Part shown: piece by piece, positions 2,745 to 38,940 of the stretch | Numbering within the stretch: position 1 is the first letter of the stretch | How the letters are laid out: the number at the start of each line of letters is the position of its first letter | From: Macrocystis pyrifera | Lineage: Eukaryota; Sar; Phaeophyceae; Laminariales; Laminariaceae | Direction: 5' to 3' | Assembly: GCA_031763025.1 (NCBI GenBank) | Contig: JASSKH010000001.1 | Location: forward strand, 18,267,142-18,331,141 | DNA length: 64,000 nucleotides | The notes under the pieces: model-generated | Seen by the model: the letters and a program-made list of their open reading frames with translations, nothing else | Told to the model about the DNA's origin: nothing | Databases searched by the model: none | Made by a program: the position numbers and the translations under genes

Positions 2745-4240
2745 TTTGCCCAACGCCGCGTCATCTGCAATCGAGCCGACCAGGAACGTTTCGCTACCTT
2801 ATCCTTAAAAATCGAGGAACCAACGTCCCGCCTTGTGCGATAGCACAGAAAGGGAATGATGGGACCCAGGGGGCATTGCCAGAAGGCATTTCGGGAGCTA
2901 CAGATTAAGTACCTGGTATAAGGCAGCCGCAAACTATTACGGGGGACCATAGTTAATAGGATCAAATATTGTTCGCAAAAATAGGTAAATATATAGGTTT
3001 TTATATGTACCATAGGTCCTATTAACTATGGTCCCCCGTAATATACCATTCGATGCAAGGCTGCGGAGCTGGTGGCCACGACCTTAAAGTCCAGGCAAGA
3101 CCCGGACAAGTTCTTCCCCCGAGCCTTCGTCATTCGCGACCAAGCGGAGAATATGGGAGAACCCCTTACGGATGGCCAACTTAAGGACATCACGGTTCAA
3201 GGCCGTGCAAAAGACTAGGGTATCAAGCTAATGATGTACCGGGGTCGTTCGTTTAACACTGAACAGACCCAGAACACCATGAGGTATCTACCTCGACAGT
3301 CTGCCACAAAGAACACCGGACGAGAGAAGCATCGCTGGCCGCACCGCGGCCATGATAGCAGAGCCACTGCTGACTCTGACCGAGTGATATCCAGTTACTA
3401 CAACGATCGGGTACACTACCAGTGGGGCTACGGCTTGTTCGTCAAAGACACAAAGAACAGGTAGCTTGCCTGCGAAAGAGGTAGGGCGGGATCGGAAGGC
3501 GCCGCAAAAAAGAAATGGGGCTCTACACAATACTGCAGTAACTACCCATGACCATGCCGACTGCTAACGGTGCTACGGAACACTTCGTGAAGGAGGCGGA
3601 ACTACACCGTACTCAACACGCCGAAAACCAAAAGAGCAACGAGCAAGCAGCTAATTCTTGGCGCCGCCTCCGGTCTTCTGCCCGCCGTCATAACCGAAGG
3701 TACTGGTGAGGATCATGAACTAGACTTTCCCAGCATTATCATTTCGGGACTAGGTCGCTATCTCTGATCCACCTCCGCTGCAGGAAAATATAGAAATCTC
3801 CACCATCATTCAGCCGGGGATCAAAATGGAACAATATCGTAGGTGCTTCTGCAGCAACTAAACACACACATGAGTCCGTGTAGTCCGTGTTCAATACAAG
3901 TTGAAATAGACGCGAAGAAAAACCCACACTGCTGTTGTGCATCTACATACGCGAAGGTTGACACAACGTGTGTCAACGCCTATATTCGGCGTAGACAGCT
4001 GGGACACATGAGTCCCCGCAGCCCGGAGTTTCTTCGCAGGAAGGACGGCACCAGATTTGCCCACAACGGCGCCATTTGGGTCGTATTACCTTCGCCTTCG
4101 GAAATTAGCAGGAGTGGACACACCTCAGGAATGCCCCGCGCAAGACCGGTGGGACCAAGCTGCTTGTTGAAGCAGACTTTGTGGTGCACTACAGGAACCG
4201 GACGAGTGATTGGGACTCGGCCTGAAAACCAAGAAATAAA
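2745..4240 (+). mobile_element. Broken Ty1/copia retrotransposon fossil (gag and pre-integrase parts)
   Basis: Translated pieces match the Ty1/copia polyprotein order. A gag piece of the UBN2 type lies around 2880-3330 (words such as FRELQIKYL, DPDKFFPRAF and GEPLTDGQLKDI). Around 3500-3560 is a possible zinc-knuckle neighbourhood. Around 3960-4215 is a GAG-pre-integrase-like piece (QLGHMSPRSPEFLRRKDG). No LTRs, integrase core or reverse transcriptase were recognised around it. The element is clearly broken in several places and looks much older than the copy at 6.4-10.8 kb. A short TA-flanked inverted-repeat element is inserted in its gag part, and the 24-bp repeat tract at 4245 begins where integrase would be expected. 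Confidence 0.7.
2937..3041. mobile_element. TA-target inverted-repeat MITE, copy 1
   Basis: A 105-bp element with near-perfect terminal inverted repeats: TTACGGGGGACCATAGTTAA at the left end and its complement at the right. It is flanked by TA on both sides (2935-2936 and 3042-3043), the target-site signature of Tc1/mariner-type elements. It has no coding capacity and lies inside the gag part of a copia fossil, so it inserted after that element. Related copies lie at 26818, 38209 and 31178/31733. Confidence 0.9.
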
Positions 4241-6682: not shown

Positions 6683-7420
6683 ATGCCCTCGAAGGGGTCG
6701 GCTCAAGAAGAGCGCGACTCTCCAAGTGACGTTGAAACGCTGCGACGCGAGATCGAACTGGCGATGGAGAACAGCGAGGCGTCGATGCTGAACGCCATGA
6801 GGGAAATGATGACCGAGTTCATGAGGAACAACGGTCGATCGAAGCCAGGCAGCGCTGAAGGCAGCGTTGTTGTAGGAGAAAGTCCAGCAGAGGTAGGAAC
6901 CACTGCTGTAGGGGAAAGCCCAAGAGGGGCAGTACCCACTGCTGAAGTACGAGAGACTACTGCTGCTGTTGAAGCAGGCATTGGTCGATCGGAGTCCGGC
7001 AGCGCTGAGGGTAGCGCTGCTGTAGGGGAGAGCCCACAAGGGACGGTACCCACTGCTGTAAGAGAGATTGCAGCAGAACAAGAGACATATTTGCGTGAGG
7101 GCGCCTCGCCAGATTTGGGAGCAACTGGACGCGGAAGAACTGCGTTGCCTGTCGAGGTTGGCCCACCGAGGGGTCATCCAGATCAGCATGGGAGGACAGG
7201 AGGATGGGGTGCATACCCTGGCGGTGAGTTGGGTGGTGGATTTGATCTGCCTCTATCGCGCCATTTGGCCTTCAAACACACTCCTGTGCCATCGTTTAGT
7301 GGGCTAAAATCTGAGTTCAACCCCTGGACAAGAGATGCTCGGTATTACGCCAAAGGAGTTGGTTTCTGGTCTACTTTCATGCCGGATCCACCACAGTACA
7401 TTCCCGTAGGGGAATTAGAC
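6683..7420 (+). pseudogene. copia gag-like region (fossil)
   Basis: Open from a methionine at 6683. The N-terminal part is charged and helical, followed by degenerate GSAEGS..VGESP repeats of about 50 residues. Around 7288-7420 comes the copia gag entry motif (PSFSGLKSEFNPW, then GVGFWSTF and YIPVG), typical of the start of UBN2-type gag. In an intact family member this protein forms the particle shell. Treated here as part of a fossil. Confidence 0.75.
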
Positions 7421-7423
7421 ACC

Positions 7424-8280
7424 GAGACGATGGGTTCGTCTCAAGGGGGCGCCGTGGACGCCTCCTCGGTCCCGGCACGTGGGGTTTTGACCTGGACGCG
7501 TTTATGCTGGAGCGCGCACAGCAGGCACCTGCCGCCGGCGAGGCCGGCGGCGAAACACCCGAGACGATGGGTTCGTCTCAAGGGGGCGCCGTGGACGCCT
7601 CCTCGGTCCCGGCAGGGAGGGCCGAAACACCCGAGACGATGGGTTCGTCTCAAGGGGGCGCCGTGGACGCCTCCTCGGTCCCGGCAGGGAGGGCCGAAAC
7701 ACCCGAGACGATGGGTTCGTCTCAAGGGGGCGCCGTGGACGCCTCCTCGGTCCCGGCAGGGAGGGCCGAAACACCCGAGACGATGGGTTCGTCTCAAGGT
7801 GGCGCCGTGGACGCCTCCTCGGTCCCGGCAGGGAGGGCCGAAACACCCGAGACGATGGGTTCGTCTCAAGGGGGCGCCGTGGACGCCTCCTCGGTCCCGG
7901 CAGGGAGGGCCGAAACACCCGAGACGATGGGTTCGTCTCAAGGGGGCGCCGTGGACGCCTCCTCGGTCCCGGCAGGGAGGGCCGAAACACCCGAGACGAT
8001 GGGTTCGTCTCAAGGTGGCGCCGTGGACGCCTCCTCGGTCCCGGCAGGGAGGGCCGAAACACCCGAGACGATGGGTTCGTCTCTAGGGGGCGCCGTGGAC
8101 GCCTCCTCGGTCCCGGCAGGGAGGGCCGAAACATCCGAGACGATGGGTTCGTCTCAAGGGGGCGCCGTGGACGCCTCCTCGGTCCCAACAGGGAGGGCCG
8201 AAACACCCGAGACGATGGGTTCGTCTCAAGGTGGCGCCGTGGACGCCTCCTCGGTCCCAACAGGCAGGGAGGGCCGGAAA
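7424..8280 (+). repeat. 72-bp tandem repeat inside the copia element
   Basis: Ten almost identical 72-bp units begin GAGACGATGGGTTCGTCTCA at 7561, 7633, 7705 and so on to 8209. An isolated earlier partial unit lies at 7424-7482. Each unit is 24 codons on + (core MGSSQGGAVDASSVP). Units differ by only one or a few bases, so expansion or homogenisation is recent. Long antisense frames over the array are a by-product of the repeat. Confidence 0.95.
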
Positions 8281-8689
8281 CGACCCGGGCGCAGCATCAG
8301 CCTCCGACACCGGGCAAGGGGACGGTGAGGATCCCCCCGCGGTCCTGTCGGGGAGGCCAGCACACGAGCTCAGCAGCTGGGGCCGGCTCCCCCCGACTGT
8401 ACGGGGCCGGACCCGGGGTCAAAGCCAACGCCTGGAGGGTGAACCTGCTGTGCACCAGGTAAGGATGGATGAAAGGACCGCAGACGCGCTGCTTGCGGCA
8501 GCGTACGAGTCGTGGACGAAGCCTGGGAGTATGCTGGATCGTACGCCCTGGACGACGGAGGACGCAGTGGCTTTGATGGCCGGAGGACCTGCTGTGGAGA
8601 ACAAAGGGGAGTTGAGCGTGTGCATGCCGAGTGGTTTCCCGGAAGACGTAGAACCGCCCCCACAGTCCGTAGTAGATGTAGAGCGTTCT

Positions 8690-13400: not shown

Positions 13401-16289
13401 GACAAAAACACCCGCCAGGCAGCCGCAGCAATTTGGGGTACGAATAGCATAGACAGATTCTACCCACCATTAATCGTCAGTTTGGTAGCTTGCTACGCTG
13501 CCTGATGCCGTTTCATTCCCGCTTTCGTCAACCGTGCCCCACCCGCGGAGAGGATGCGTCAGACAATACAAAACAGATAAAGCAGGCGTCATCCACCCGC
13601 TCGAAACGAGATCTCTTTCATAGAGGGACAAGAAGGAAGAAAAACAGAAAGTAAAGGTAGAAGAGCAGAAGAAGAGTCCCTCAACCTTTCAGACAACGGG
13701 TCGGGTTTAAAAACAACCCGTCACCCATTTTTACAGAAAGATTCCACTATTAACAGCACAATGGAGCCATTGTTGGCACGCGCACCTGACAGCAGTGTAC
13801 ACATGATACCGTATCGTACGCATCCTGACTGCTGTGAGTGCACCCCGGACGTTAACGGCTTCCTTAGTATGAATCTACCGATGCCGGTAATAATGCAGAC
13901 GTATTCGCCATCGCGGATTAAGTCTGCGGGTAGATGCCCCTGTGAGCAAATCACCCGCAGCACACCGCACCTGTATGTTCAGTCTGCCCCTCACCGTCAT
14001 CTTGTGCTTTGCCTAGACCGACGCATACAGCCTTCCGGCGCGCTGTCTTCCGTAAGGGCACTATTACAGCTATCGAAGGCGCTGCCGACACCCAAGACAC
14101 TATTCATAAGGAAGCGGGGGCTCTTGACCGCGTCATTGGCAGCGACATCGACATCGACGGAGAACAGCAGCCCTTTCTACCGCACGCATTGACGACACTG
14201 GTGGGATTCCAAGGTGAGGTTCGTTGGGGCGTACGGGCCGAGGCCCAATCATGAGGAGGGTCGAGAGCTGCGTAGGAGTGATGTGGTGGTAGCTTACACA
14301 GGGCGACAACCCGACGGCTTCCGCGCTACAGTAGCATGCACGTTTCGCTACCTTGCAGGCTTGCAGAGTACCGTGTATGTAGCGCTGCCATGCAAGCGGG
14401 AAATGTACGACTCCTCTCCCTCAAATGCATTCTGTACATCACACGTCGTCTTTCACCATGCAGGAAGTCAGACTTTCCATCACCCCTCCCCCCCCCCCCC
14501 CCCGCCGACGTGCCGGCGGATAGATAGCTACCAAGGCTTCGGCCTATGAGTACACACTCAGCGTTCTGACAACGTGATCGCTCGTCGCGCCTTCAAACAT
14601 CGCGAATTGTTTGTGCGGAAGGTAGCAGCCGGTTTACACACCATGGTCCAGATATAGGCAGGAAGTTTCATGCACTGGAATCCCAGGGACAACTTACTGC
14701 TGTCTGTTGTAGCGTAGTGGAAGTCGGAAAGCGCACGTTGCTAAAACGAGGCGCGGATCCGGCACACCGACTGATGGCATAATCGGCGTGAAATATCTTG
14801 CACCTTCACGCAAAAGATTATACCGGGAAAGCAATGCAATAACACTAGCTTGTTAGACCATTCAGGATCACTACTCGTGGCCTTGCAAGGGCGTTCGATG
14901 GAAACGCAAAAAATACCTCGCGACTATCCGAATTATCTGTTGGCTGTTGACAGTTGCCGGTACATGCCATGCTCGTGAAGATTGATGCCTGTCATCTTTG
15001 GGCGAAAGGTTCTGCGCCTATCAACACGCTTGTTTCAGTAGCACGGTGCCGCACAGGTAGCGCCGCACATGGACACTATTTAAGATTTGCATCTGTCGAA
15101 AGCGAGATGTTTATTGTGCATTCGTCTTCACCGAAGACAAAAAGCAAAACTGACTGTCAGTGAGATCCCGCCAAAAAGCATGTATGCACGAATCATAACA
15201 TGTTTCCAAGCGTCACCCACGCGCGGGAAGAGCAAGCCCGGTCTAGACCCCCAGCGTTCACGTCTCTCGGCTGTCACGGTGGCTTTCATGTTGACGATCT
15301 TGGGAAAGAATGCCACCGCATCATCTGTGGTCGCAAACCACATCATGTATGTGCATATGCAATGTTTTCCGCCGTTTAACATGCAAGGTACCAAACCCCC
15401 TGGGCGTGAATTACCGAGCCGATTTATTCAAATCAAGCACGGGTGGGTGCAGGCAAAAAAGTATAATGGCTGCGGGAATATGTCGCCGCGAATACCCTTC
15501 CCAAGGGGGACGCATCGATCTACGTTTTTTTTTCACACCATCTCCGCTGGTGAGAAAACCTAATTTAGCTTCGAAATTCGTGCTATTAGTAGGGGTTATT
15601 TTTATCTTGCGTGTTATGGTTCGTATCCACCAACCATATTGCACGACTCGCTGCATACTGTTTGTAAAGCATATATTATCAAATTATATAATGCTATTAT
15701 TATTCTTGGTACAAGAGTATGTCACCATTAATGTTAAGCCCTTTGGAAGATAGCGACCGAAACAAGGATGGATATCTTTCGAAGTTGGTACTAACTACTT
15801 GTCAATCGTCTACGAGAAGCGTGCGCGCCGCCGAGCTTACGGGTAGAACCAATGCACGCCCGTGCCGCACGACTCCTCGCATTCAACCGTTGTAACTGTG
15901 ACAACACTTTGTCTGTATCGTCCCCCAATCCTGCTGCGGCGGTTGCTGCAAATCATCACTTTTTTTCGCCAATTTCCCCTCTCAAGTCCCATTAGGGTTT
16001 AACACGCTTGCTCGTGCCAACCGTACCGCTACAATACACAGACGGTTTATTACAGCAGTAGAAATATCGCAGTGTCGTACCCGGCACATAGTTTTAATAG
16101 TCACAACATAGCGGCTACGAAGCGCAACCTTTAGACTATACTTGTACGTCTATTCTACGTGGTGGTTTATAAAAGACCAACAATTATATACCTGGTACTC
16201 GTACTACAGGTAGATTCTAGAAGGTGCGTATTGAAGAAACATTTAAAAATCCAAATATTGCTGACAGGGGCGTAACAGCAACAGTGGTG
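13401..16289. other. Long stretch with no recognised gene
   Basis: Several mid-length frames occur (for example 13761-14192, 14009-14254 and 15087-15563 on +) but none shows a known domain, signal peptide or supporting splice sites. A run of about 15 C lies at 14489-14503. The frame at 14009-14254 has an ordinary acidic protein-like composition and could be an exon of something I cannot name. Confidence 0.35.
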
Positions 16290-18995: not shown

Positions 18996-19718
18996 AGTAC
19001 CATCCCACCATTTTACTGCTCTGTTGCACACTATCAATTTCTTCCCTACCTGGTATTACTTTACGTGTTGTGGTCTTGACCCATTGCTCCTATCCTTCCA
19101 TTGTCCTAGTTCTTGCGTTATCCCTATCCATATACTTTTGTTGAGCCTGTTCTCTCCAGTAGCTCGGAAAACTTATTTGCGCTGTTGGCCATCTCTTCTT
19201 GAACTTTTCCAGTTTTATTTTGCTTCTAGTGTATATGTTCTCCATCCGTACAATTTCCTACCTCGCCTATGTTTGATAACTCGCGTTTGCTGACTGTCTG
19301 TCCATATTAGACAGCGATCCGTAGTTCCTATATCCGCTGCGCACACATTTTTCTTTCCGTTTCTTTTCTACTTGCCTCTTCCACCACTTTAAGGTCGTGA
19401 GCACTTTCTGGTCCATCCTGGCTCTGTCTTTTTTCTTTTGTTCAACTTTTTCATCTCGTTGTGCTTAAGGAACTTCAACAACTCTTCCCTATTTTATTCG
19501 TCGTTACTTCCCTATGTTGTCCGATGTTCTCATTCGAGCTGCTTGCCTTCCCAATTATTTAACGGAAATCTCCCACAGGTACTACAGTAGTACCTCTCCT
19601 TGCCTTTATACTTCTGCACGTCCATCTCTACTTCTCCGAACTCCCCCTGTGTATACTTTACCATACTCTTCGACTCTGGAGACGCATAGATGCTTCCTAA
19701 GAAGTAATGGAGGGTGGG
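18996..19718. other. Stretch with no recognised gene
   Basis: T- and C-rich on the + strand. Frames are short and have hydrophobic biased composition, as expected from pyrimidine-rich non-coding DNA. Confidence 0.35.
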
Positions 19719-19816
19719 CGGGGGGGGGGGGGGGGGTACTCATGCCATGCATGGCCTTAGTCGTATGAACATACCAGTAGACACTCGCATCCCTACAATG
19801 CCAGGACGGGGCAGGC
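19719..19816 (+). mobile_element. Repeat B, short 5' fragment
   Basis: Starts with a G-run (19719-19736), then GTACTC, ATGCATGGCC.TAGTCGTATG and CTCGCATCCCTACAATGCC, the same words as the first 100 bases of repeat B. The similarity stops after about 100 bp. Confidence 0.75.
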
Positions 19817-20260
19817 GGGGGACCCTTGCGTGGAAAGCCCGGATCGGAGTTGCGGGAAAATATCGACAACCCTTGAGAGAGAGAACAACGGGTCTCAACT
19901 GAAAGCCGCGAAAGTATTATGTCAACCGGTTCGCACTCGGCTTTGCGAGCTGCGCGCCGCGCGAGTCTAGCGTCTTTCAGAATCAACCAAGTGGACCGTC
20001 GCCGTCTTGACTAATATTGTATGTGCGTGACCATAAGGTGGCAGAAATATTGTACCAGGTAAGTGTTTCGAAAATGAAAATGGTGGCATACCCGGTATCT
20101 GGCACATAGAATAATGGTGGACTTGTTTTGCAAGGCAATACGCGTTGTCATGACCTAGTTGGTATTTTTTGTGCCCTTCAATCTTTCGATCGGATGCTTA
20201 GACAGTACTGCCCAGAAGTACGCAGAAAAAAAAAGAAAATGGCCTACTAATACACTCCTT

Positions 20261-20805
20261 CCCCCCCCCCTATTATATATTATACATGGGTTGGGTTGGT
20301 GTCGGTTGGCAACGACACTGTAAAACATGCCGCTCACTACGTGAGCTAGACATCCAGGGTACCGTTTTTTTTTTTTTTTTTTTGGCGGTCGCCCATAGCT
20401 GGTCGTCTAGTTAGATCATTTGCGCGAAGTAAAGAACCTTTACTCTGCACAAGGAAATTGATCGTATCACGTAGTGTTCAAGGTACAGCACCCAAGAGGC
20501 AGTTACATAGTACTCCCATTGCTGTCTCTGGAAGTGGCCACACCGGAAATTAAACTAACTCATTGAAGCTGTCATCCATATGCAAGTCCGCCTCACAAGC
20601 GGTTCTTAGTAGGATGCAGCTCACCCTTCATGCGACTCGCCGGACACCTCACGGCGCTTCGCGCTTGGTGCAAGCAATGTCTGCCTGGTCGGTGAAAACC
20701 CGACATGCTCCGTCCCGCCATTGTAGGGATGCGAGGGTCTATGGTCATACGACTACGGCCATGCATGAGATCGAGTACATCTCTCCTATCGAGTAAACCT
20801 TCCCC
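20261..20805 (-). mobile_element. Repeat B, full-length copy 1
   Basis: Reverse-strand copy of a non-coding interspersed repeat of about 545 bp. Read on -, it starts after GGGGAAGG with ACTCGATAGGAGAGATGTAC, passes the conserved CGCATCCCTACAATGGCGGG block and a hairpin TTTGTGC..GCACAAA, and ends in an AT-rich tail followed by a G-run and GGGGAAGG. The same 8 bases GGGGAAGG on both sides look like a target-site duplication. No terminal inverted repeats or open frame. It is SINE-like in form, but the family is unknown to me. Confidence 0.8.
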
Positions 20806-21003
20806 AGGGTCACAATGATAACAAACCGAACTGATTTCGAGATTTCTGAACGAAATACAAGAAATTGGCATTTAGTTCAACGAATGATAATAACCTTGTT
20901 TCGGTATATACCCCCCTGTCTCGGTCTCAGAAGACAAAAAAAATGCTGTCTGGTGTCCTCCGCGTTTAATTTCGTGATCTAGCTCGAGCAGCTTCCGCTG
21001 GCT

Positions 21004-21097
21004 ATGACGCTGCCAGAGGAGGATGGCGTGCCCGAGAAGTGCTTTGTTCATCCGCAATCATCGCGTTTCTCCAACACCTTCTATTTCTACGCTTATG
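21004..21097 (+). CDS. DUF4470-MYND gene, exon 1
   Basis: Begins MTLPEEDGVPEKCF and ends FYFYAY plus one base before the donor GTGAGTGG. The split glycine codon joins exon 2 to give YFYAYGNTP, the family's entry motif. Confidence 0.75.
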
Positions 21098-21517
21098 GTG
21101 AGTGGGCGTGATGCGCGGACCACGAACTCACCCATGAACATTGCTCGTGCATATGTAGCCATGATAGTACTGACTGATGTTCATGCAGTCGCCGTATGCG
21201 CAACAAGGCCGTGCTGATGTTCGTGCAGTCGCCGTATGCGCAACAAGGACGTGCTTTCTCCTGCCGGGGGGAAGGCAATTTAGAAACCCTCCATGTTGAG
21301 TTTAATCCTACTTTCTACCCACCTTGTGAGGAAATTTTGTTCGAGGACCTTTTTGGTTTCTACTATTGACGCGCTCTTGTGATCCTTTGTTGTTGTGTAA
21401 GGTAGCATTTCACAGATACATCCAGACGGGCTGGCCAGTATGTCGCTGTCGGCACAATTTCGATCAGACGAGTGGAATTGTTTTCTTCAAAAAGTATTTT
21501 CATCCGTAAGCTTATCG

Positions 21518-21558
<41 letters not shown>

Positions 21559-24500
21559 CAACTAAAGGAAACACGCCTCCTTCGGATCTTCTCCAGCATG
21601 TACCACACGATGCTGTAAGGGCTGACATTCTCAGTCTGGGCTGTGGCGACATTCGAGATCTCCTGTACTCGATCGTTCTTCACGGGAGACGAGGCGTGAG
21701 CTGCGGTACCGAGCCGCGCCAGTTGACGTTCACCCTGAACGACTGGGAACCCGCCATCCATGCCAGGAATCTGGTGATGCTCCAGCTGATCCTCGAGTCT
21801 AGAAACCTGCTGGAGCCTGTGGAAACGGACATGGTACTTGCCGGTCGGATGGGAGCGATGGAGGTTTGTGACAGCGCACGAGCCAGTGCGCAAGCCGGAC
21901 AGAATACGGCCGAAGCAGTCCGCAAGCGGAAGGCCAATGCAAACCCCGAAGTGCGCAGCAACACCACGGCGGGTTCACGAACAGGCCCAGCGTGTTCGGA
22001 GGGTTCGCAGGGAGGCCAAGAGAGCAACGCGGCTTTCGCCCAGAGGATCGGGGTGATTTTCAGCGCCATGTACAACGTGTTCGTCGACGCTGACGTTTTG
22101 AATACGATTCAGGATGTGGCTGGGAGGTTAGCGGCGTCACTTGCATCATCAGAGGAGTGGACCTCGACCGAGCTTGGGCGACTGGTTCACTTCGCCGACG
22201 ACCGCAGTCAATATCGCGTGCGCGATATCCTGGCTCTCTACGCCGACACAGGTTTGCAGAAGAGGGTTCCGGCTCCTAAAGTGAAGAAGCAACGGTCCTC
22301 CTTCATCAGCAAGAAAATATCCAGGGGTCGTATCTTCTGGTCTCGGGCAATGGGGCTGTCATCAATCGGTCAAGACTACAACAGTTGTCAAGCCTACAAC
22401 GAGATGGTACACAAATGTAAGATCAATTCCAACAATGAAGTTGTTAGAAAAGGTGTGTATTGGGTGAGAGGCGCAGGCCTCGAAATTGAAGACGTCATAT
22501 TCCAGGATACGTTCTTATATGCGTTGTACTCGTTCATACGCTCAAGGAAAGTACACGATTACGCAAGGAAAATATTACCGTACTGCTGCAACTTCGAACT
22601 TGCGGATCAGACCCGTAGGATAGGGTGCCATTGACCTCCTCTCCTGTTCTGACCGTACTGCAGACCTGGCGGAGGGCATTCTGGATCCTTTTCCCCTCCT
22701 GCTGGCGGACAAAAAGGCTCCCCTCAAGCGTGCACCGAGCAAACTCGTCAACCCACTCCTACTGGTGACGGAGAGGAAAGGCACGGCGTACAGCCTTCAC
22801 TACGGGTCGTTTCCGCTCGACGCCTTCCACACAGAAGGTCCGGTCTACGAATAATTCATATACGCCGGAAATGATGCCCGTTTGGTTGAACTCGTAGGCA
22901 AGCCTCCTATAGCAGCCCTGTTTAAATTGTTGACAAGCCTCCTGCAGCAGTGTGAGCACTGCACGGTCCCTCAGTTGGTTTAACTTGTGGAACGTGAGAG
23001 CCCAGCAGGCAAGAGATACAACGGACGATTTCAGCACCAACCATCACATTGTAGCATCCCGGCGCTGCCGGGGTGACGGGAGGATTATCTCAAAACTTTG
23101 GTACTACGGTACAAGACAGTATCGGAAGCGCACAGCAAACAGTTGATCAGCACTCGCTTCGTATTCGTACCCTGTAGACTGCTCACGGCCCAAGACAATT
23201 GATGACAACGCGTTTCTGAATGTTTTGCCCGCTGTGGCCGTGTCCAAACAGGGGAACTCGATACACACTTCTGCTCAATAGACATCATGCGCCCCAGAAG
23301 CGTTCTATGATAGAGGTTCACCCTAAATATTCTGATGCTCCTCACTTGACCTTAAGGAGCTCCATACCTCACCCGAAAACTGAATTTTTAGCAAAATCAA
23401 ATTGATTTTTCCGATGAATAATCCCATGGCCCAAATATACAAAAACGCCACGTTTCGAAACAAGATTGGTCCTTCCGATGATTCTGGGTTAAGGAACCCC
23501 GCCATTCAGAAACCATTTTAGCGGAAATGTGCCACCTCTATCGTAGAACGCGTCCCCGTGGATTTTGATGGTGCCGACCAGAGCACAAGCTCGGTACACG
23601 TCTAGCGCCGGAACTTTCTGTGTAATATATTCCAATACGCCTACCATAAACTGGAACACAAGTCGGTTGAAGTACCCCTTTGCCTTCTATCTCATCGAAT
23701 TGCGACAACGTGGCAGTGGCCTCGTGGAAGCTGCGCGACGAGATCTTCCAGGACAAGCACAACAAACTCGCACCTAGGGTGCTGAAGGAGAGAGTGGTGA
23801 AAACCCGCAGCTGCAAGGCCGGGCGATCGACTGCATCTTCCCGGAGGAGTGAGCAAGACGCTCGATTCGGCGCTGCTCTGGAGCAGCTGGCTCAGATGTG
23901 TGCGGGGTTTCTGGCAGCTACGAGGATCGCGCCTGCGGAGTCCGGTGCCAGTATAGAGTCTGCTTCCCCGCACCTCAGGATGAACATTCATGTGGGCGAC
24001 GCAATCGACTTCTGCGACGCGATCTTGGCCTCGTCGGTAACCGCGGGAGCCCCTGAGGGCAGTGTCCGTCCCGGCGCGAGCAATTCTGATTCGCTGACAT
24101 TCGAGGGCATCGCTTTTCAACAAGGGACGCTACAGCCATTCCGACTGCGCAAGGACACGTTTTGGGGACTTCGTACGGAGTTCGACGTCATCAGCACCGG
24201 CAACCTCGCAGAGCATCTCGGTAAACAGTCGGTGATCTGTGACTATGGCAATATGAATGCACGGCACTTGCGGTTATCGGTGGATACAGAGAACCCCTGC
24301 TTGCGGATCAAGCGTAGTGTGTGTGCACCTTGTAAGATTTCATACGTTTCGACGTGTGGCGGTACTGGAGCACCAATGTTTTACGAGGAAACGGAGATGT
24401 CAGTTCTGTTCATGAATGTTTTTTATGTATCCTATCAGCGCTCGTTTTAGGTACTCTTCAGGCATGCCGCGGCCGATGCTGTTTTAATGCCTGGTCGTTG

Positions 24501-27500
24501 ACTCAAATCGCGCAGGAAGTTGTCAGTTCCCTGGTGGCCAGTGCACCGCTTCTGGAAGAGTGCTAATCGTACCTTGGGACATGGTAGCACACCAGTAAGT
24601 AGAGAACATACGTATATTTTTTCATCTACCAATATACAGCAGTTGTCCAACACCTTCGCGATTCCCTTGATCAACCTCAAGGTATACCTTCAAGTAACTT
24701 CGCATGTGGCAGCACGTGAGTGGCGGGAGAACGGGTGTGTAATTTTCTGCCTACGAACTTACAGTGCTCTCCCAACACATTCGCGACTCTCTTGATGAAA
24801 TTTGAGGCATGCAGCCGGTGCTGGCGTAACGCTTGGTCATCATCGAACCATTCTTGCGCAGGTATTGTGAATCTTCTAGTGGGCACTGCACCCCTTCTGA
24901 GGCCGCAGCCGCACGCAGTGCTGCTGACTAGCTTCATGGCATTCGTGAGTACACTGCACCTGTACAAAGACACAGGGGCGTTCTACAAGAAGCTACTCTG
25001 CATGACCTCCCAAGCTGCGGCGTTACTGCTAGGTATGCATTGCACTTTCACACATAACTCGTTCTCGTTGCCCAGTTATCGACTCGCTATAGCAGTGTGT
25101 TAGAGGCGGCCCGTCGCACGCTTTATTCCGACTTTATTTTGTGGTTGTGGTTTTAGTATAGGCCCCAAAAGGTCAAGCGAGCCCGTGATTTTCAAGTTGG
25201 ATAGAGAGCCAAAATATGTCGACGAGCACACCGATGTAGTGGGTTGTGATTCCCGGTTCTGTGCAACTGTGGTCAAGAAGTTACCATGCAAGGATTGAAG
25301 CGTTGCCCTCCATGCCACGTACAGGAGTGTCGTTGGTCAAGCTAGCCAAAGGGGGCTGTGTGGCTCGAGGTCGATACATGTCAATTGTCTTCTTGCACCC
25401 AGTGGGTGGGGGCCGCCGCCTTTCCCGGAGTTGGCGTTTACACACGGTGTGCGGTGGCATCGACCCGGGGGCCCACCTTTTTCGTCCCCGGTGTGTTGGA
25501 GTTGTAGGTGTATGAACGGATATCTGATCAGGAGATGGGACCTTACCCTCCCGGATGGCGCTGGCCCGACGAGTCTCAGTCACTCAGCAAACTGTCAGTG
25601 GGGTTGGTGTTTCCGCACCGTGCGGGGCCGTATCGACCCGGGGGACCGCTAGCTACCCCAGACGTGTTGAAGTTTCAGGGGCGGACATGACGTTGTGTTG
25701 TGTTGTGTAGGGCGTCATATTCAAGTAGTGTGCTGTGATATACTGGTGTAGTATTTACTTGAGTAGTATATGGAACTACGTAGTAAGCGCCCCGCCCGCC
25801 CCCACAGCGGTTGGGCTACAGTCAAGGAAGCAGTTCTGAATCGAATGCGGGAGGCTGTGGGAATACATGAAACGAAGAGGGCGGAGAAAGAAATGGACGG
25901 ACACAGTATTTGGGGGCAGAGAGGGGCAAGAGTATTTACGGACGATACGCAGATATACCTGGTTGGAAGGACACGTTATTTCGGGGCAAAGGGACAGGAG
26001 TAACTATGGGCGATACAAAAAATGACTGCGTGACAGAAAATATGTTTGAAAACGAAACAAAAGGGAACTATTCAGGTCGTGAGGGCAGGGGCGGTCTCCA
26101 TTTTGTCTCCATCCACGTTTTTTCTTTCACGACCAAATAATGCTTCGATCGTAACTAAAATAGTGCTCCATGCTGCCAGAATCCTTGTTCATACATGTAA
26201 TATAGTGAGCCGAGAAGGCGATCTCCAGTAATCTTGCCCTACGGCACCATGGCAGCAGTGGAACGTACGAGTGTTGTCAACGCCCATTTGTTTGACCGCG
26301 GTGAACATTTCGTGTCTTTTCTTGGCCTGTGTGAAAAGTTTTGACGATCGCCTAGAATGGAATTCGACGAGCCATATTTGGGATGGCCCCATCCCGCCTG
26401 CGCAACACAAGTTATTCGATATATGTAAGTATTAGTGCAAGTACTACATTAAAAGGGTGGAAATGAGGAGCGTGGCAGATACCCTAAAGTGTTCAGACTC
26501 CTGGTTGCAATAAGCTACTGCGTCGGCGGTTATTCTATGGGACAACGTATGTATGGTGTATGTGTTGAGCTTCACCAGTTAGGAGCATACCATACGTGAC
26601 GCTCCTCATTCTCATCGTTCCAGTGGTCACCCCTTGAGAACTGCTCCGACGATTTTGGGAAAACATGATTTTTTGTGTGGGACATAAACAGCTCACATTA
26701 GGCGTACAACAAGCACCAACACCACAACATTGATCAATGCAAAAAAAAAATAATAAGACAAGCTACTTGGAATTAGTGTGGGACAGGAAGAGCACACGCA
26801 ATGTTCCCAAACAATTATTACGGGGGGGCATAGTAAATAGGACCATATATTGTAGGTAAAAATAGCGAAATATATGGGGTTTTGTGGGTACCGTAGGTCA
26901 TATTTACTAAGGTTTCTCCGTAATAATAGTCTAGGCCAATAACAATACGACAATAAAAAAAAGTCATACGTGGTGAAAAACAAACCAGGGAGGTGGTATT
27001 TCTGGACCATACGCACTAATATAATATTACCTTTCTTGTGCGTTTATTCAGTATACCCGCCTGCCGTTGTCTGGTCTCGATGAAGGATGCTGGGGTGCGG
27101 ATTTTTTTTTACCTGGGAGTTTGTTGAAGCGAATGCATTCAGCTAACCCTGTAAGTGTGCAATAGTAAAACGCCTTCATGGTTGAGCGATGCGCGCCAAC
27201 GCAGGAAACGTTTCCCTGGTACCAGATATGTACCAGGTAGAATTGTACGACAACGAGAACAACAGCGACCTGTAATACGATATAGAGGCTCATCGACATC
27301 ACAACCACCACCACAGACAGTAAGCTTTTTTACTGGTGCTTCTGTTGACCAGCTGATGGTGGTGAGGATGGTGATCAATGATCTCTGATGATACCTGCTT
27401 GGCGTTCTAGTGACGAAGCAGCACGTAGCAAACTATACCTGGTACATGCCAACCATCACCACCACCATAACCAGAAGCAGCAACGACCGCCATCACCACC

Positions 27501-29116
27501 AGCGACAAGCTTCCGGTGCTCAGCTGGTGGTGGTGGTGGTGCTTGACTCGAGGATGGCTGTTGGTGTGGCCTCTGGTACCTGCTTTATTTTCCCTTGTTT
27601 GTGAGTCATGTCACATCACGGAGGAGTTGGAGGGTACGGAGGGGGGGGGGGGGGGGGGGGTTGTACTCGATAGGAGATATGTGCTCGATCTTATGCATGG
27701 CTGTAGTCGTATGACCATAGACCCTCGCATCCCTACAATGCCGGGACGGAGCACGTCTGGTCATCACCGACCAGGCAGACATTGCTTGCACCAAGCGCGA
27801 AGCGCCGTAAGGTGTTGGGCGAGTCGCATGAAGGGTGAGCTGCATCCTACTAAGAACCGCTTTAGAGGTGGATATTCTTGCATGTGGATGACAGCATCAA
27901 CTAATTGATTTAATTTCTGGTGTGGCCACTTCCAGAGACAGCAATGAATGGGTTTACTATGTAGCTGCCTCGTGGGTGCCTCACCATATACCCACTACGT
28001 GAGACGACCATCCCCCTTGTGCGGAGTAAAGGTTCTCCCCGCACAAGAATGATCTAACTTGACCGCCAGCCGTGGTAACCACCAAAAAAAATTACCCTGG
28101 CTGTCTGGCTCACGCAATGAGAGGCGTGTTTTACAGCGTAGTCGCCAACCGACGCCAATCCAACCTATATATATATATGTACCAGCTATATAGTACAAGG
28201 GGGGGGTACTCATTATCAAGCATGGCCGTAGTCGTATGACCATAGACCCTCGCATCCGTACGATGCTGGGACGGAGCACGTCGCGTTTCCACCGACCAGG
28301 TAGACATCGCCATAGCACCAAGCGCGAAGCACAGTGAGGTATTCGACGAGTCGCATGAAGGGTGAGCTGCATGCTATTATATGAACCGCTTGTGAGGCGG
28401 GTACCTTGTACGCGGCGGAATACGTATATGCTTGCGTTTCCCATGCCAACCCTTATTAATAAGACCTGGTAAGTAGGTCATTCAACATGATAACCAAGCT
28501 TCGCGAAGTCATGACGGCTTTGAACACGAGGGTAGGGGAGTGGCGATGCTATTTAGGGACCTTCAGAGATCCCGTCTGTTTCGAAATCGGTGGTGTTTTT
28601 TTTTGTCGCGCACGGGGACAGAAGGCGGCGTTCGAATCATATGATACCAGTATCACAGCAAGGAAGAACGACACAATCTTTAAGACGTATCAAACGTGGC
28701 AACCGCACTGCTGCAATAGAGCAGCCCAAATCGCTGCGGCCACGACGACAAGCACGGCGCAAGTACGCGTTGAACTATGCCAACCTGCGACGTAAGAAAA
28801 CGGTGCCGGCGTGGTTTGAATGTTGGGAGAAGCATGCGTGGTTTGAATGCTGGGAGCAAAAACGGGAATATTTTTTGTTTACATTTTATTCCACTCCAAG
28901 TTGCTATAAAAATATTACACACTACAGTAATTATCACGTTATTGTTATTGTTTGCTTTTCGGGCACCAGACGAACTTTGCATATAATAGTAAGATGAAAA
29001 CATCTTGATTGTAAAAACTACTATTAATACTGCTGCTGCTACTGCTGCTACTGCTCCTGCTACTACTGCTGCTACTCCTACTGCTACTATTAGACTACTA
29101 TACTACTACTATTATG

Positions 29117-29152
<36 letters not shown>

Positions 29153-32100
29153 GACTACTACTGTACCACTACTCCTACTATTATGACTCCTATTACTACT
29201 GCTACAACTACTACCAGTCAGTATAAGTACTGATTATAACACTGCAGTATGCTACCTGGTATGTACTGGAAGTATGGTTGCTAGAAGAACAGACTCCTCA
29301 GTGCCCTAGCTCTGGGATGGATATTTGCCCAGTCGGTAGAATCGGATCAGAATTCGAAATTGTAAAACAGCAGCAAGGCTGGCTTGATGGCTGACCGCAA
29401 GCGATATCTCGCCGAACGGATATCCCGCGAATCGCAATTGACTGAGGGACTGTTGGCCAAGCTCGGCACACGACGGCCAGGACTCGGCGCGAGACGCAGT
29501 ACCCCGATTAGTGTGTTTTGCACTTTCTCTGCCGATGTCGCGAGGCGCGACTGAAACACTCCGGATCGCGAGACTCACGGGACCATAACGACAGTACTCG
29601 TGGTGTGCTGTGATGTACCAATATGCACATGGCTATAAGGACAACCATCGATAAATCTATGTGAGTTCAAGTGGCCGTTACGTTGCCGCCCGTAGTCACG
29701 CTACTTGGGATTGGGGCAATGCTCAGCACGCGACGGCCAGGACTCGGTGCGACTTGAGACGCGGTGTCCCGCTGGTTGTGCCACCCACCCTCTCTACCTA
29801 TGCGGCAAGGCGGGGCGGAAACGCTCTGGATTGAGATACAATGCTTTCAGACAGACAGACAGACTACCAATCACAATATTTCATAATAAAGGGTACCTGA
29901 TTTGATAGAAACAACGGAACACGCCTCTTCGCAAGGAAACCCGGCGTGTCCAATTGTCAACAATCTTTGTCCTAAAAATGAAACACGCATTTTGAATACA
30001 ATGCTTTCCTTAGAGCCCCCCTGCCTTGCGGCCACCGGTTTTAGACTTTTCCCACTATCCATCTCTTTGAATCCCAAGCATGATACATTTTAGAGTAGGG
30101 CTGACGTCTCGTGAACTCCGTTGATTTATATTCGACAGGGCTTGAGAGTAGACCGTTTCTCTAGGTTTGGTATAGAAAAAGATTGGCGAGTTTCAAGAAC
30201 ATCCACAGCCCTTGTTTCACACAGGGACAGATTACGATTGCCACTTTATGATATAAATCTTCTCCTTGTACTTCGAAGCACATATATTCCTGACCTGTAT
30301 GAGCTACAGCAGTACTTCATGTTGCCGGGTGGGGCCAATAAAATCTGTATGATATACGACATCTTTCCTGGGTAGGTTTGGTACTACGGTACTCGTACGC
30401 AAATCCTGTACATCACCTCAGAACGGCAGGTTAGGATCTATGATCTACGTAGACCTCCATCTGCCCGACGTGTGAAAAGTTCCAAGTCTCTGTGACCTGT
30501 GAGACAGCAGTATGGGGGAGACAAAGCTGTTGGGGGAGGGACCGGAGAAGCCGCCTGTGATACAAACAAACATGGCCAGACCAAACAACCCGCTGTTGGG
30601 ACTCCTGGCGTAGATTATTCATCTGTGGTGCAGTAGAATTGCCTCTCTGTCCCTCCGTACAAGGAACATTTTTCACATCACCACACTCTCATAGTCCAAA
30701 CGGTTCCTATCGATAGATATGCACACATTGTGATGATGCAAAGAGTCGTACGACACGGGCCCGGTATGACCCTACCTGGTCTCCCGTACTACTCGTATCC
30801 GAACTTATCCCACAGTGGGTTGCACGTTTTCACTCTTCAAGTTAGCAACTATTAGCATACCGGTTATATAGTATGGTATTATTTTTGTGACGTCGTCCGT
30901 CGCGCACACCACTCTGTACCGGAATATAAGTACCTTTTTATTTCAATAGTTATTCAAAACCCTAATTATATTTAGGGACCAGTGATATAAATCTTGGTCG
31001 GGCTGCGCGAACAAACGTTCTCTGAAGTCCGGTTCGGGTGAGATATTGAGCTCCTCACATGTGCTCATGTGATTGGAGGAGCTGAGAAGATAACAAGCCA
31101 CCACCCCTACAAGGGACGCCTCTACGGCTCATAACGTCAAGCCTGTGTCATGTTTGCGGTCATTCTCTCCAACACTATTACGGGGGGGGGGGGTGTACTC
31201 GAAAAGAGAGATGTACTCGATCTCATGCATGGCCGTAGTAGTATGACCATAGACCCTCGCATCCCTACAATGGCGGGACGGAGCATGTCGGGTTTTCACC
31301 GACCAGGCAGACATTGCTTGCAAAAAGCGCGAAGCGCCGTGAGGTGTCCGGCGAGTCGCATGAAGGGTGAGCTGCATCCTACTAAGAACCGCTTGTGAGG
31401 CGGACTTGCATATGGATGACAGCTTCAATGAGTTAGTTTAATTTCCGGTGTGACCACTTCCAGAGACAGCAATGGGAGTACTATGTAACTGCCTCTTGGG
31501 TGCCGTACCTTGAACACTACGCGATACGATCAATTCCTTTGTGCAGAGTAAAGGTTCTTTACTTCGCACAAATGATCTAACTAGACGACCAGCTGTGGGC
31601 GACCGCCAAAAAAAAAACAGAAAAAAAAAAAACGGTACCCTGGATGTCTAGCTCACGTAGTGAGCGGCATGTTTTACAGTGTCGTTGCCAACCGACGCCA
31701 ACCCAACCCATATATAATATATATAATATATAATGGGGGGGGGGCATATTAAATAGGACCTACGATACACACACATATTTGGTCCTATTTACTATGGTCA
31801 CCCGTAATAAACACGGCCAAAAATGGTTACTTGCATTTCGGGGCACAGGCCTTCTTACGACGGCACTCCAGCCAGGAAAACGGCCAGTCTTTCTCGAACC
31901 AAGGGGTTGGGTCGAGGTAGCAGTTGGAACCGACGTATCCACACCTGCGACAATGAGCTCAAGTCTAGCACGAGAAAATCGGTGGAATAGATGTTTCATC
32001 GAAAGGATGGACTACTCGTACAGTAGCTCCAAAGTTTAACGGGTGATCTGCTGCACATACTTATCATTACCTGACCTCGATTTTAATGGCAGGCGTTGTT

Positions 32101-37021: not shown

Positions 37022-38208
37022 AGGTGTACCGAAACAGCGTCGTTGGCGCATGACCAGAGGGAGAGGGAGAGCATTTCGCCTTCTATATATCTTTGTGAAC
37101 AGGCCCTGGACACGAAATCAAGGGGGTTGGTGGGGGAGGAGCGATTGCAATGAAGTACTGTCTTATCGGCCGTGAGTTGTTTGACGCACGCTATGAACAG
37201 TAAGGTGACACCGCAGAATTCATCTCACGGTGGCTATGAGTCGTCTCCTGTAATGCAGCTGTTACAACCGTGCTACTGAGTACCCTGGTATAACCCATGC
37301 CGGTAGGCGGTAGGGGAGGTGCGCGGAGGTGAGGTAAAATAGCGCAACAGTCGGAAATACTGTAGGGATTCAAACTAACGCAGTGTATGCCTTGTATACG
37401 ATCCTTCGCCCAGCTTCCAAGCGTGTGCGTGACACCCACATGCACGTCAGAGTCGGAGGCAACGTAGTATCAGGTTTAGCCCAACGTTGGCAAGGCGACT
37501 TGCAGCCATTTTCTCTGGTCTGCTGAAGCTCGTTTGTTTCACATTTCAGCCTTAGCTCGAGTGCTGGACCTGAAATGTGGATGGAAGGAGTTTCACCTTA
37601 CCACGTAGGGTGATAGCATTGTGCTGCTGGTCGTCTCAAGGTAAACTTCAATATTCAAGATCCGACGCCGAAATTACGAGTAGAGTAGCGCAGTGCGGCA
37701 ACTTCGAGTATGCAGGACAAGCACGCCGAGAATGACAAAATAAGAAACGTATAGTAATGGTGCCCAGCTGCGAGCGCCAATCCTATGCAATACAAGTGTT
37801 GCGACAAGGTTCTAAGGCTCGCTCACATCACGTCTGTATCCTAGTATATAATGCTCAGATTTTCTTCTTGGCGCCCCTATACTGTATCCCAGTATATGCT
37901 CAGACGACGTGTTCACAGCAGCTAACACCTCGGTCGCCCCCGATGATCTAGTGGTTAACCGTGAGTACTAATAAGGTTGAGCTCGAGGGTCCGTGTCTCC
38001 GTATGTATGGGTTTTTTTAATTCTCGAGTAACACTGTCTGGAGAGCCTACTGTAGCCCGGGTAGGCACCGATTGACGCGAGTCAACGAGAGAAGAAAGCG
38101 TTGAACCCTTGTCGTGAGAAAAATTCCTTCCAAGGCACGTACTGTAGTGAATACGGGGGAGAGCATCCAGCCAGCCTGTTAAGTGACCCTGAATCTAAGT
38201 TACGACTA
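37022..38208. other. Stretch downstream of the MYND gene, no gene recognised
   Basis: Only short unremarkable frames. A tRNA-like segment lies near 37937-38003. No polyadenylation signal stands out. Confidence 0.4.
37937..38003 (+). other. tRNA-like relic (Glu-type 5' half)
   Basis: CCCCGATGATCTAGTGGTTA is very close to the 5' half of eukaryotic glutamate tRNAs and contains an A-box. The 3' half (GAGGGTCCGTGTCTC) only vaguely resembles a B-box and T-arm, and no acceptor stem closes. Probably a decayed tRNA or a tRNA-derived repeat head. Confidence 0.4.
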
Positions 38209-38313
38209 TTACGGGGGTCCATAGTTAACGGGAGCAATTTTTTTCAGTAAAAATAGGCAAATATATAGGTTTTTATGTACACCATAGGTCCTGTTAACTA
38301 TGGACCCCCGTAA
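38209..38313. mobile_element. TA-target inverted-repeat MITE, copy 3
   Basis: 105 bp with near-perfect terminal inverted repeats TTACGGGGGTCCATAGTTAA and its complement, flanked by TA (38207-38208 and 38314-38315). Same interior words as copy 1 (AAATATATAGGTTTTTAT). Confidence 0.9.
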
Positions 38314-38940
38314 TAGGAGGGAGCAGGAAAAGGGCGAATACAATAAGCGGAAAGGACAACAACGGAACGGAAACAAGTGGTACTGTGCCATGCTTTTGGA
38401 GGAAGGGGGGGTTGTATTCTCGTGGTATACGCGTAGTTGGTTCCGGTGCACCTTGCGCACATACGCTACTCTGGTTGGTTGGTTGGTTGGTTGGTTGAAC
38501 GACGTGCTTGCCGTTTAGAGCGCAGGCCCCACGGATAGCCTTCAAGAGATGGAGTCCATGTTCGCGTGTATTCGAGAATCTCATGTCGAACATACTTATG
38601 TAGAGGCCAATAATGTGGGATTTGTGGCATGTGTGGTATTGTTGCAGGTAGCATGCATGCATGGGGGGGGGTGAGCACACGAGAATTCTCACTCCACACT
38701 GCGCAGAATGGCTCCTTCTCGAGAGTTCTGCGCCCGTACGCCATTGCCATACCGTAAAATACATGTATTATCTTCCCATTGCGTCTATAACTTGGTGTGA
38801 CTGTCTTATGAGCCGGGCATTGTGAGCACACGTCGCTGGAGACAAGAAAGCAATGACATTGTTTTCGTACATGCAGCGCACATCACAGTGAAAAGACTAA
38901 GGCACCGTCTGCTTACTACGAATATAGAAAGCTTTACTGC
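38314..38940. other. Stretch with no recognised gene
   Basis: Includes a (GGTT)n run at 38473-38497 and a 9-base G-run near 38663. Nothing else recognised. Confidence 0.4.

Follow-up and report, generated by a model that had tools for sequence, protein, structure and literature searches.

A short SINE-like retroelement of the kelp Macrocystis pyrifera and its probable LINE partner at G-runs

We analyzed a repeat in a 64,000-nt stretch of the Macrocystis pyrifera genome (assembly GCA_031763025.1, contig JASSKH010000001.1, positions 18,267,142–18,331,141 of the forward strand), hereafter called the window. An earlier note on the same DNA had listed five copies of this repeat as a non-coding element of ~550 bp inserted in G-runs. 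All five copies were recovered and their borders refined; the refined copies measure ~530 bp. Judging from its sequence, the repeat is very probably a short (~530 nt) non-autonomous retroelement resembling short interspersed nuclear elements (SINEs) and dependent on a long interspersed nuclear element (LINE), with both partners preferring G-runs.

Copies of the Element in the Window

Each copy starts with TGTACTC or a close variant directly after a G-run (the G-run end), and full-length copies finish with a TA-rich stretch followed again by G (the far end). The copies and their borders are listed below, with RNA ends and sense strands named according to the polarity argued for later; G12 stands for a run of twelve G residues, and so on.

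20257..20270, + strand, target duplication at the RNA 5' end of copy 20271–20797: CCTTCCCC, the C-run being C10
20271..20797, + strand (sense/RNA strand +), full-length copy, 3' end reading ...ATCGAGTAAA
20798..20805, + strand, target duplication at the RNA 3' end of copy 20271–20797: CCTTCCCC
31182..31193, G12, priming side (RNA 3' end) of copy 31194–31734
31194..31734, − strand (sense strand −), full-length copy in a repeat resembling a miniature inverted-repeat transposable element (MITE)
31735..31744, G10, other border of copy 31194–31734
27661..28198, − strand (sense strand −), full-length diverged copy, priming-side G20 at 27641–27660
28207..28400, − strand, 5'-truncated copy adjoining G8 (28199–28206)
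19737..19819, − strand, old short copy, G17 at 19720–19736
19001..19708, − strand, degenerate piece from within the LINE coding region (77% identity), separated from G17 by 11 bases

The identical sequence reported on both sides of the copy formerly placed at 20261–20805 was confirmed as CCTTCCCC on each side of the refined copy 20271–20797, and the copy formerly placed at 31182–31740 (now 31194–31734) indeed lies between two G-runs, G12 and G10. The G8 at 28199–28206 is a border common to the neighboring copies 27661–28198 and 28207–28400; the latter copy has no G-run at its truncated end. Window positions 20365–20805 and 31186–31626, an opposite-strand pair, were 96% complementary over 441 nt. 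The absence of terminal inverted repeats and of a coding frame also stood: no inverted repeat of at least 10 nt was found at the ends of the two best full-length copies, and the longest open reading frame (ORF) inside copy 20271–20797 was 77 aa.

Ten G/C runs of at least 10 nt were observed in the window versus 0.08 expected under a dinucleotide Markov model. Long G/C runs (11–36) also occur at 14488, 21520, 33858, 55973, and 57035, where no copy of the element was noticed alongside; other families, or copies since lost, may have had these five as targets.

Abundance and G-Run Borders in the Genome

Genome-wide counts refer to one assembly (223 contigs, 537,376,219 bases). A 41-nt piece close to the G-run end had 20,203 matches with at most three mismatches; its reversed-pattern control had none. 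Exact matches to the 28 nt at the G-run end of the long form numbered 3,417, with G6 directly outside 2,580 of these ends and C6 outside none of the 3,417.

Individual copies were studied in two samples. The first was reduced from 208 chains to 115 by the removal of duplicates and short flanks, and 110 of these, older and mixed copies, were used. The second consisted of 40 further copies (loci L079–L098 and L103–L122) from exact + strand matches among 100 listed places on contigs C125–C128. Because it was taken from exact matches, this sample is biased to young copies; two of its loci (L117 and L120) overlap those of the first batch.

Among the 40 further copies, a run of at least five G (G5+) ended no more than 4 nt from the element at the invariant junction in 33 (C, A, and T, 0 each; 0.6% at random window positions), and G occupied each position from −1 to −8 in 85–95% of copies. 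At the far junction, G5+ lay within 25 nt in 36 of the 40 (C 0, A 0, T 1; window control 2.0%). Together with the G6 outside 2,580 of the 3,417 exact ends, these counts run against the possibility, raised in the earlier note, that most copies have non-G flanks. Seven copies had no G5+ at the invariant junction: six with shorter or interrupted G-runs and one (L106) without any. The start of copy L094 had been set at an inner motif, hiding its G15. L106 is an exception to the rule, being joined to LINE sequence with its terminal ~30 nt missing.

The target G-run was preceded by A in 21 of 33 copies versus 47 of 117 G5+ runs in the window background, and A is a possible extension of the target. 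Tracts of up to ~50 G were seen at copies, the lengths of all G-tracts depending on assembly accuracy, and tandem and nested copies occurred in several loci.

Target Duplications

In some of the 40 further copies, host bases that precede the G-run are found a second time past the far end, again followed by G. The following duplicated host bases were read, paired numbers being the lengths of the two tracts.

L093: AGCGCTTTC-G9/G9
L121: TGACGTGGA-G21/G8
L083: TGCAGACA-G3/G4, the intact target copy being G4
L095: AATAGGAGACA, then G
L119: GATGCGGGGA, then G; tract lengths 6/14
L092: TGTGTGTA, then G; tract lengths 8/36 or more
L112: GGCCCCA, then G
L090: GGACGA, then G

At least four upstream host bases were duplicated in 13 of 40 copies (mean 1.43 and maximum 7 in 1000 permuted pairings) and at least seven in 7 of 40 (permuted mean 0.23, maximum 2). 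Twelve of the 40 copies had five or more such bases, with a range of 5–11. Because the first 20 copies had prompted the idea of a duplication, and all 40 were known before the test was designed, the other 20 were also scored on their own: 5 of these 20 had at least four duplicated bases versus a mean of 0.89, a number reached by 0 of 2000 shuffles. Since host bases upstream of the run are duplicated, the G-run belongs to the target. Locus L083 shows that such targets can be as short as G4.

Polarity and Truncation

Successive 41-nt pieces from the G-run end outwards had 20,203, 11,240, and 3,769 matches, a slope to which faster divergence of the outer pieces may contribute. Among 30 loci selected by their far end, 28 were complete at the G-run end; as for the other two, L062 starts at position 41 and the row for L043 is a neighboring copy. 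Conversely, 27 of 40 alignments at loci chosen by sequence near the G-run end broke off before the far end, at many different positions. The G-run end is thus nearly invariant and the other end is often truncated, which is ordinary 5' truncation on the opposite strand. One-sided, scattered truncation and duplications of variable length point to target-primed reverse transcription with the RNA 3' end at the G-run; hence, the sense strand reads TATTATATA...GAGTACA, followed by CCCC. The earlier note had the borders right as a G-run start and an AT-rich end followed by G; its polarity is reversed by the truncation pattern and by the LINE tail described below, and what looked like an AT-rich tail is the 5' end of the RNA.

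The LINE Partner

A search with PF14529 gave 41 endonuclease-like matches in the genome, of which three were read downstream and one upstream. Loci L099 and L100 proved to carry the same LINE (95% identity over 2,057 nt), part of which is also present in L101. In L099 and L100, the LINE ends in ...GGCAAGCAACAAATGAGTAC(G) at C-runs. Its reading frame runs to the last bases (...VNGQMTKASNK-stop), and in L100 only GTA separates the TGA from the C-run. Domain searches, run on separate pieces of a broken frame, identified an endonuclease domain of the apurinic/apyrimidinic endonuclease (APE) type (PF03372, E 1.2e-11; PF14529, E 3.1e-6) and a reverse transcriptase (RVT_1, E 8.5e-23 and 9.9e-27). The closest solved relative of the reverse transcriptase was LINE-1 ORF2p (E 2e-18); the endonuclease piece had no sequence match among solved structures. 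The zf-RVT domain (PF13966) had no matches in the genome, and neither did its control, so this search is uninformative.

The last ~73 nt of the LINE match the tail of the short element at 72.6% identity (blastn E 1.8e-5; z of 12 against 1000 shuffles), and no match outside the shared tail was found by blastn. The 77-aa frame inside copy 20271–20797 lies at window positions 20563–20796 (+), on the sense strand; judged by eye, it is in frame with the end of the LINE coding sequence where the two tails match, and it may be a remnant of a tail that was once coding.

LINE 3' ends had 6,788 matches in the genome (43-nt pattern, at most three mismatches). Among 25 deduplicated ends (27 by another key), all from matches reaching the LINE end, C5+ followed 18 and lay within 25 nt of 22 of the 25 other borders (G, A, and T, 0); these counts come without a random control, from loci chosen for the short element, whose surroundings are rich in C- and G-runs. 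The matches to the LINE have many different start points, and C-runs border them. The LINE therefore has the tail of the short element and, as far as seen, its target. The LINE coding region of L102 and L100 is directly preceded, on its own strand, by a copy of the short element, through either chance nesting or a shared promoter piece.

Empty Sites

The host of copy 31194–31734 is a small repeat with inverted ends, found again in the window without the element.

2933–3043, 26814–26924, 38205–38315, and again beside 31182: MITE-like repeat (TATTACGGGGG..CCATAGTTAATAGGACC...)
26814..26924: empty-site paralog of the MITE host, ATTATTAC-G7-CATAGTAAATAGGACC at 26822, element absent

Two other paralogs of this host carry G5 without the element. 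Most of the repeat ends that were read carry a natural G5–G7, which could serve as a landing site. In a pattern scan, the host end was followed by GTACTC within 20 bases at 63 places versus 5 for the reversed control; only some of these 63 places are uninterrupted G-runs.

For L112, the two flanks were joined and matched to the genome, yielding 31 matches, five of which (72–76% identical) continue past the junction and represent diverged empty paralogs. The host sequence of L112 is related to a tandem-unit region of the window (76% over 7478–7610, E 2e-23); that region, at 7407–8354, contains ten 72-bp units inside a long open frame (10.2 copies at 7551–8287, 97% matches). L101 compared with L057/L058 as a candidate empty site had differing sequences beyond the element. 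Among the matches listed in a local empty-site scan, most were the loci themselves or element copies in nested position.

Weight of the Evidence and Alternative Explanations

A number of observations weigh against a retroelement pair that prefers G-runs, in addition to the uncontrolled counts at LINE borders. Twenty-seven of the 40 further copies had no duplication reaching four host bases ahead of the G-run; any duplication there would be pure G, indistinguishable from enzyme-added G, or too short to score. Two cruder duplication tests on the 110-copy sample, which collapsed G-runs, pointed in the same direction more weakly, with 10 of 110 (permuted mean 2.65, maximum 5) and 14 of 110 (permuted mean 4.41, maximum 10); both recovered the GGGGAAGG pairing at copy 20271–20797. 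Strict G counts were also lower in that older sample: G4+ was directly adjacent in 73 of 110 copies, and the 40 nt at the far end were devoid of G4+ in 17 of 59 truncated copies and in 2 of 51 full-length ones. A G-run is lacking at L106, which lies within LINE sequence, and at one end of the 26814 paralog of the MITE; some short alignments are related elements with other bodies rather than truncated copies. One stop and one frame change interrupt the LINE copy that was read (L102/L100). Finally, L112 has G16 beside the element versus G5 in the intact target copy, and its five diverged empty paralogs have neither the element nor a long G-run (e.g., GGCCCCGGCAGGGAGG).

The G5 and G16 of L112 and its empty paralogs suggest that the target supplies a short run, and that tracts then lengthen or are extended at insertion, so that the G-tracts are partly made during or after it. 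The strongest alternative goes further: nicks would be weakly specific, the enzyme would add or copy a C-tail (seen as G), and the runs would be made rather than chosen. Besides L112 and its empty paralogs, tracts of up to ~50 G and the unequal tracts of L121 (21 versus 8) agree with this, yet the run also stands beyond the far side, including truncated ends (36 of 40), short runs have matching host sequence around them (L083, G4; L033, G5), and empty paralogs of the MITE host carry G5–G7. Nor, where the duplication is anchored by host bases, is the near-side tract consistently the longer one (L119, 6/14; L092, 8/36 or more). We consider runs of purely element origin unlikely. A related refuting condition named in the earlier note, that the G-runs are part of the element itself, mostly does not hold in view of the 13 duplications and the G5–G7 of the empty MITE paralogs; the five L112 paralogs are the exception.

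The polarity of the earlier note, with the AT-rich end as a 3' tail, if combined with priming inside the RNA and synthesis always completed to a 5' end at the G-run, accounts for the same junction data and would have an internal A-run at its disposal. It demands, however, scattered internal priming sites in many copies, and the tail shared with the LINE at the G-run end is the LINE 3' end by reading frame, which makes it highly improbable. A DNA transposon, a Helitron, or a solo long terminal repeat that happens to prefer G-rich DNA would fit the high copy number and the lack of a long ORF but is a negligible candidate, given the variable-length duplications (a Helitron leaves none), the one-sided scattered truncation, the tail in common with a LINE, and the absence, in two full-length copies, of a terminal inverted repeat of at least 10 nt, which also speaks against a MITE.

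Proposed Mechanism

Under the preferred reading of a LINE and a LINE-dependent short element at G-runs, the short element would carry the 3' recognition tail of the LINE and be copied by its enzymes. The APE-type endonuclease would nick the G-rich strand at or just past a G-run, and the exposed ...GGGG-3' would prime reverse transcription from the RNA 3' end (...GAGTACA, possibly with additional C residues pairing with the primer). Reverse transcription would often halt early, leaving 5'-truncated copies, and a second cut a few bases upstream of the run would duplicate host bases together with the G-run. Because both flanks can keep a G-run, copies can become the next targets; they would thereby renew their own target and line up in tandem, and the tracts would later lengthen or shorten. 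We infer that the G-rich strand is nicked first and that this particular LINE moves the short element, with specificity arising from the nuclease or from pairing between primer and RNA.

In the L1/Alu system, a nick exposes the 3' end of a T-run that is able to pair with the RNA 3' end, and the short element borrows the enzymes of the LINE. The kelp pair resembles it in the homopolymer 3' end exposed by a nick and in a short element using LINE enzymes; it differs in having a G-run target and a C-run at the RNA 3' border instead of a T-run and poly(A), and in a short element whose tail sequence, unlike that of Alu, is common to its LINE. Tentatively, but as a serious possibility, the pair may be pictured as a mirror image of L1. 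Nicked ...GGGG-3' would pair with C-ended RNA; the LINE would be almost without a 3' untranslated region, with its own coding end as the recognition tail; and insertions would duplicate the target, so that the pair makes its own landing sites and seeds G-tracts throughout the genome.

Classification and Known Relatives

The earlier description of a SINE-like repeat with a G-run target was supported by the junction and duplication tests, and the element resembles SINEs in its 3' tail common to a LINE, its ~530 nt without a long ORF, and its target duplications. A strict SINE assignment does not follow, because no head of the RNA polymerase III type was found and a T19 run lies inside the sense strand of copy 20271–20797. 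For that head, ARAGORN gave no hits in the window and Rfam none above the gathering threshold (two sub-threshold matches fall on the element), Box A/B motifs not having been scanned.

The closest described case is RTEX-N1_Ec32 of Ectocarpus, a ~600-bp non-autonomous element belonging to the most abundant family of that brown alga, which shares its 3' end with the autonomous RTE-X LINEs RTEX-1 and RTEX-2_Ec32 and has a 5' region of unknown origin (PMC12477816). Compared by description only, and as far as the part of that account used here goes, it is similar to the kelp element in size, abundance, and LINE-shared 3' end; this part mentions no G-run target, unlike the case of the kelp element (PMC12477816). 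Targets described for LINEs include genes for rRNA, tRNA, and spliced leaders, transposons, telomeric repeats, and microsatellites; Togen targets (TG)n, and the R1 and Tx1 clades have APE-type nucleases (PMC4640811, in the portion used). As portrayed there, LINEs that target microsatellites or other repeats, such as Togen, are like the kelp LINE in integrating into simple or repeated sequence, and the kelp nuclease is APE-type as in R1 and Tx1. The kelp pair differs from Togen in its mononucleotide G-run target, which is common to a very abundant short non-autonomous partner. No description of a G-run landing site was found among the titles and abstract openings listed from the openly licensed PMC literature.

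If true, a G-run target, used by an element of which one 41-nt piece alone matches more than 20,000 places, would extend the known LINE targets by a class and would explain part of the excess of long G-tracts in the window. It would also provide a natural test of nuclease choice versus pairing between nicked DNA and RNA. A recognition tail located in the coding end of the LINE would couple protein sequence to RNA recognition.

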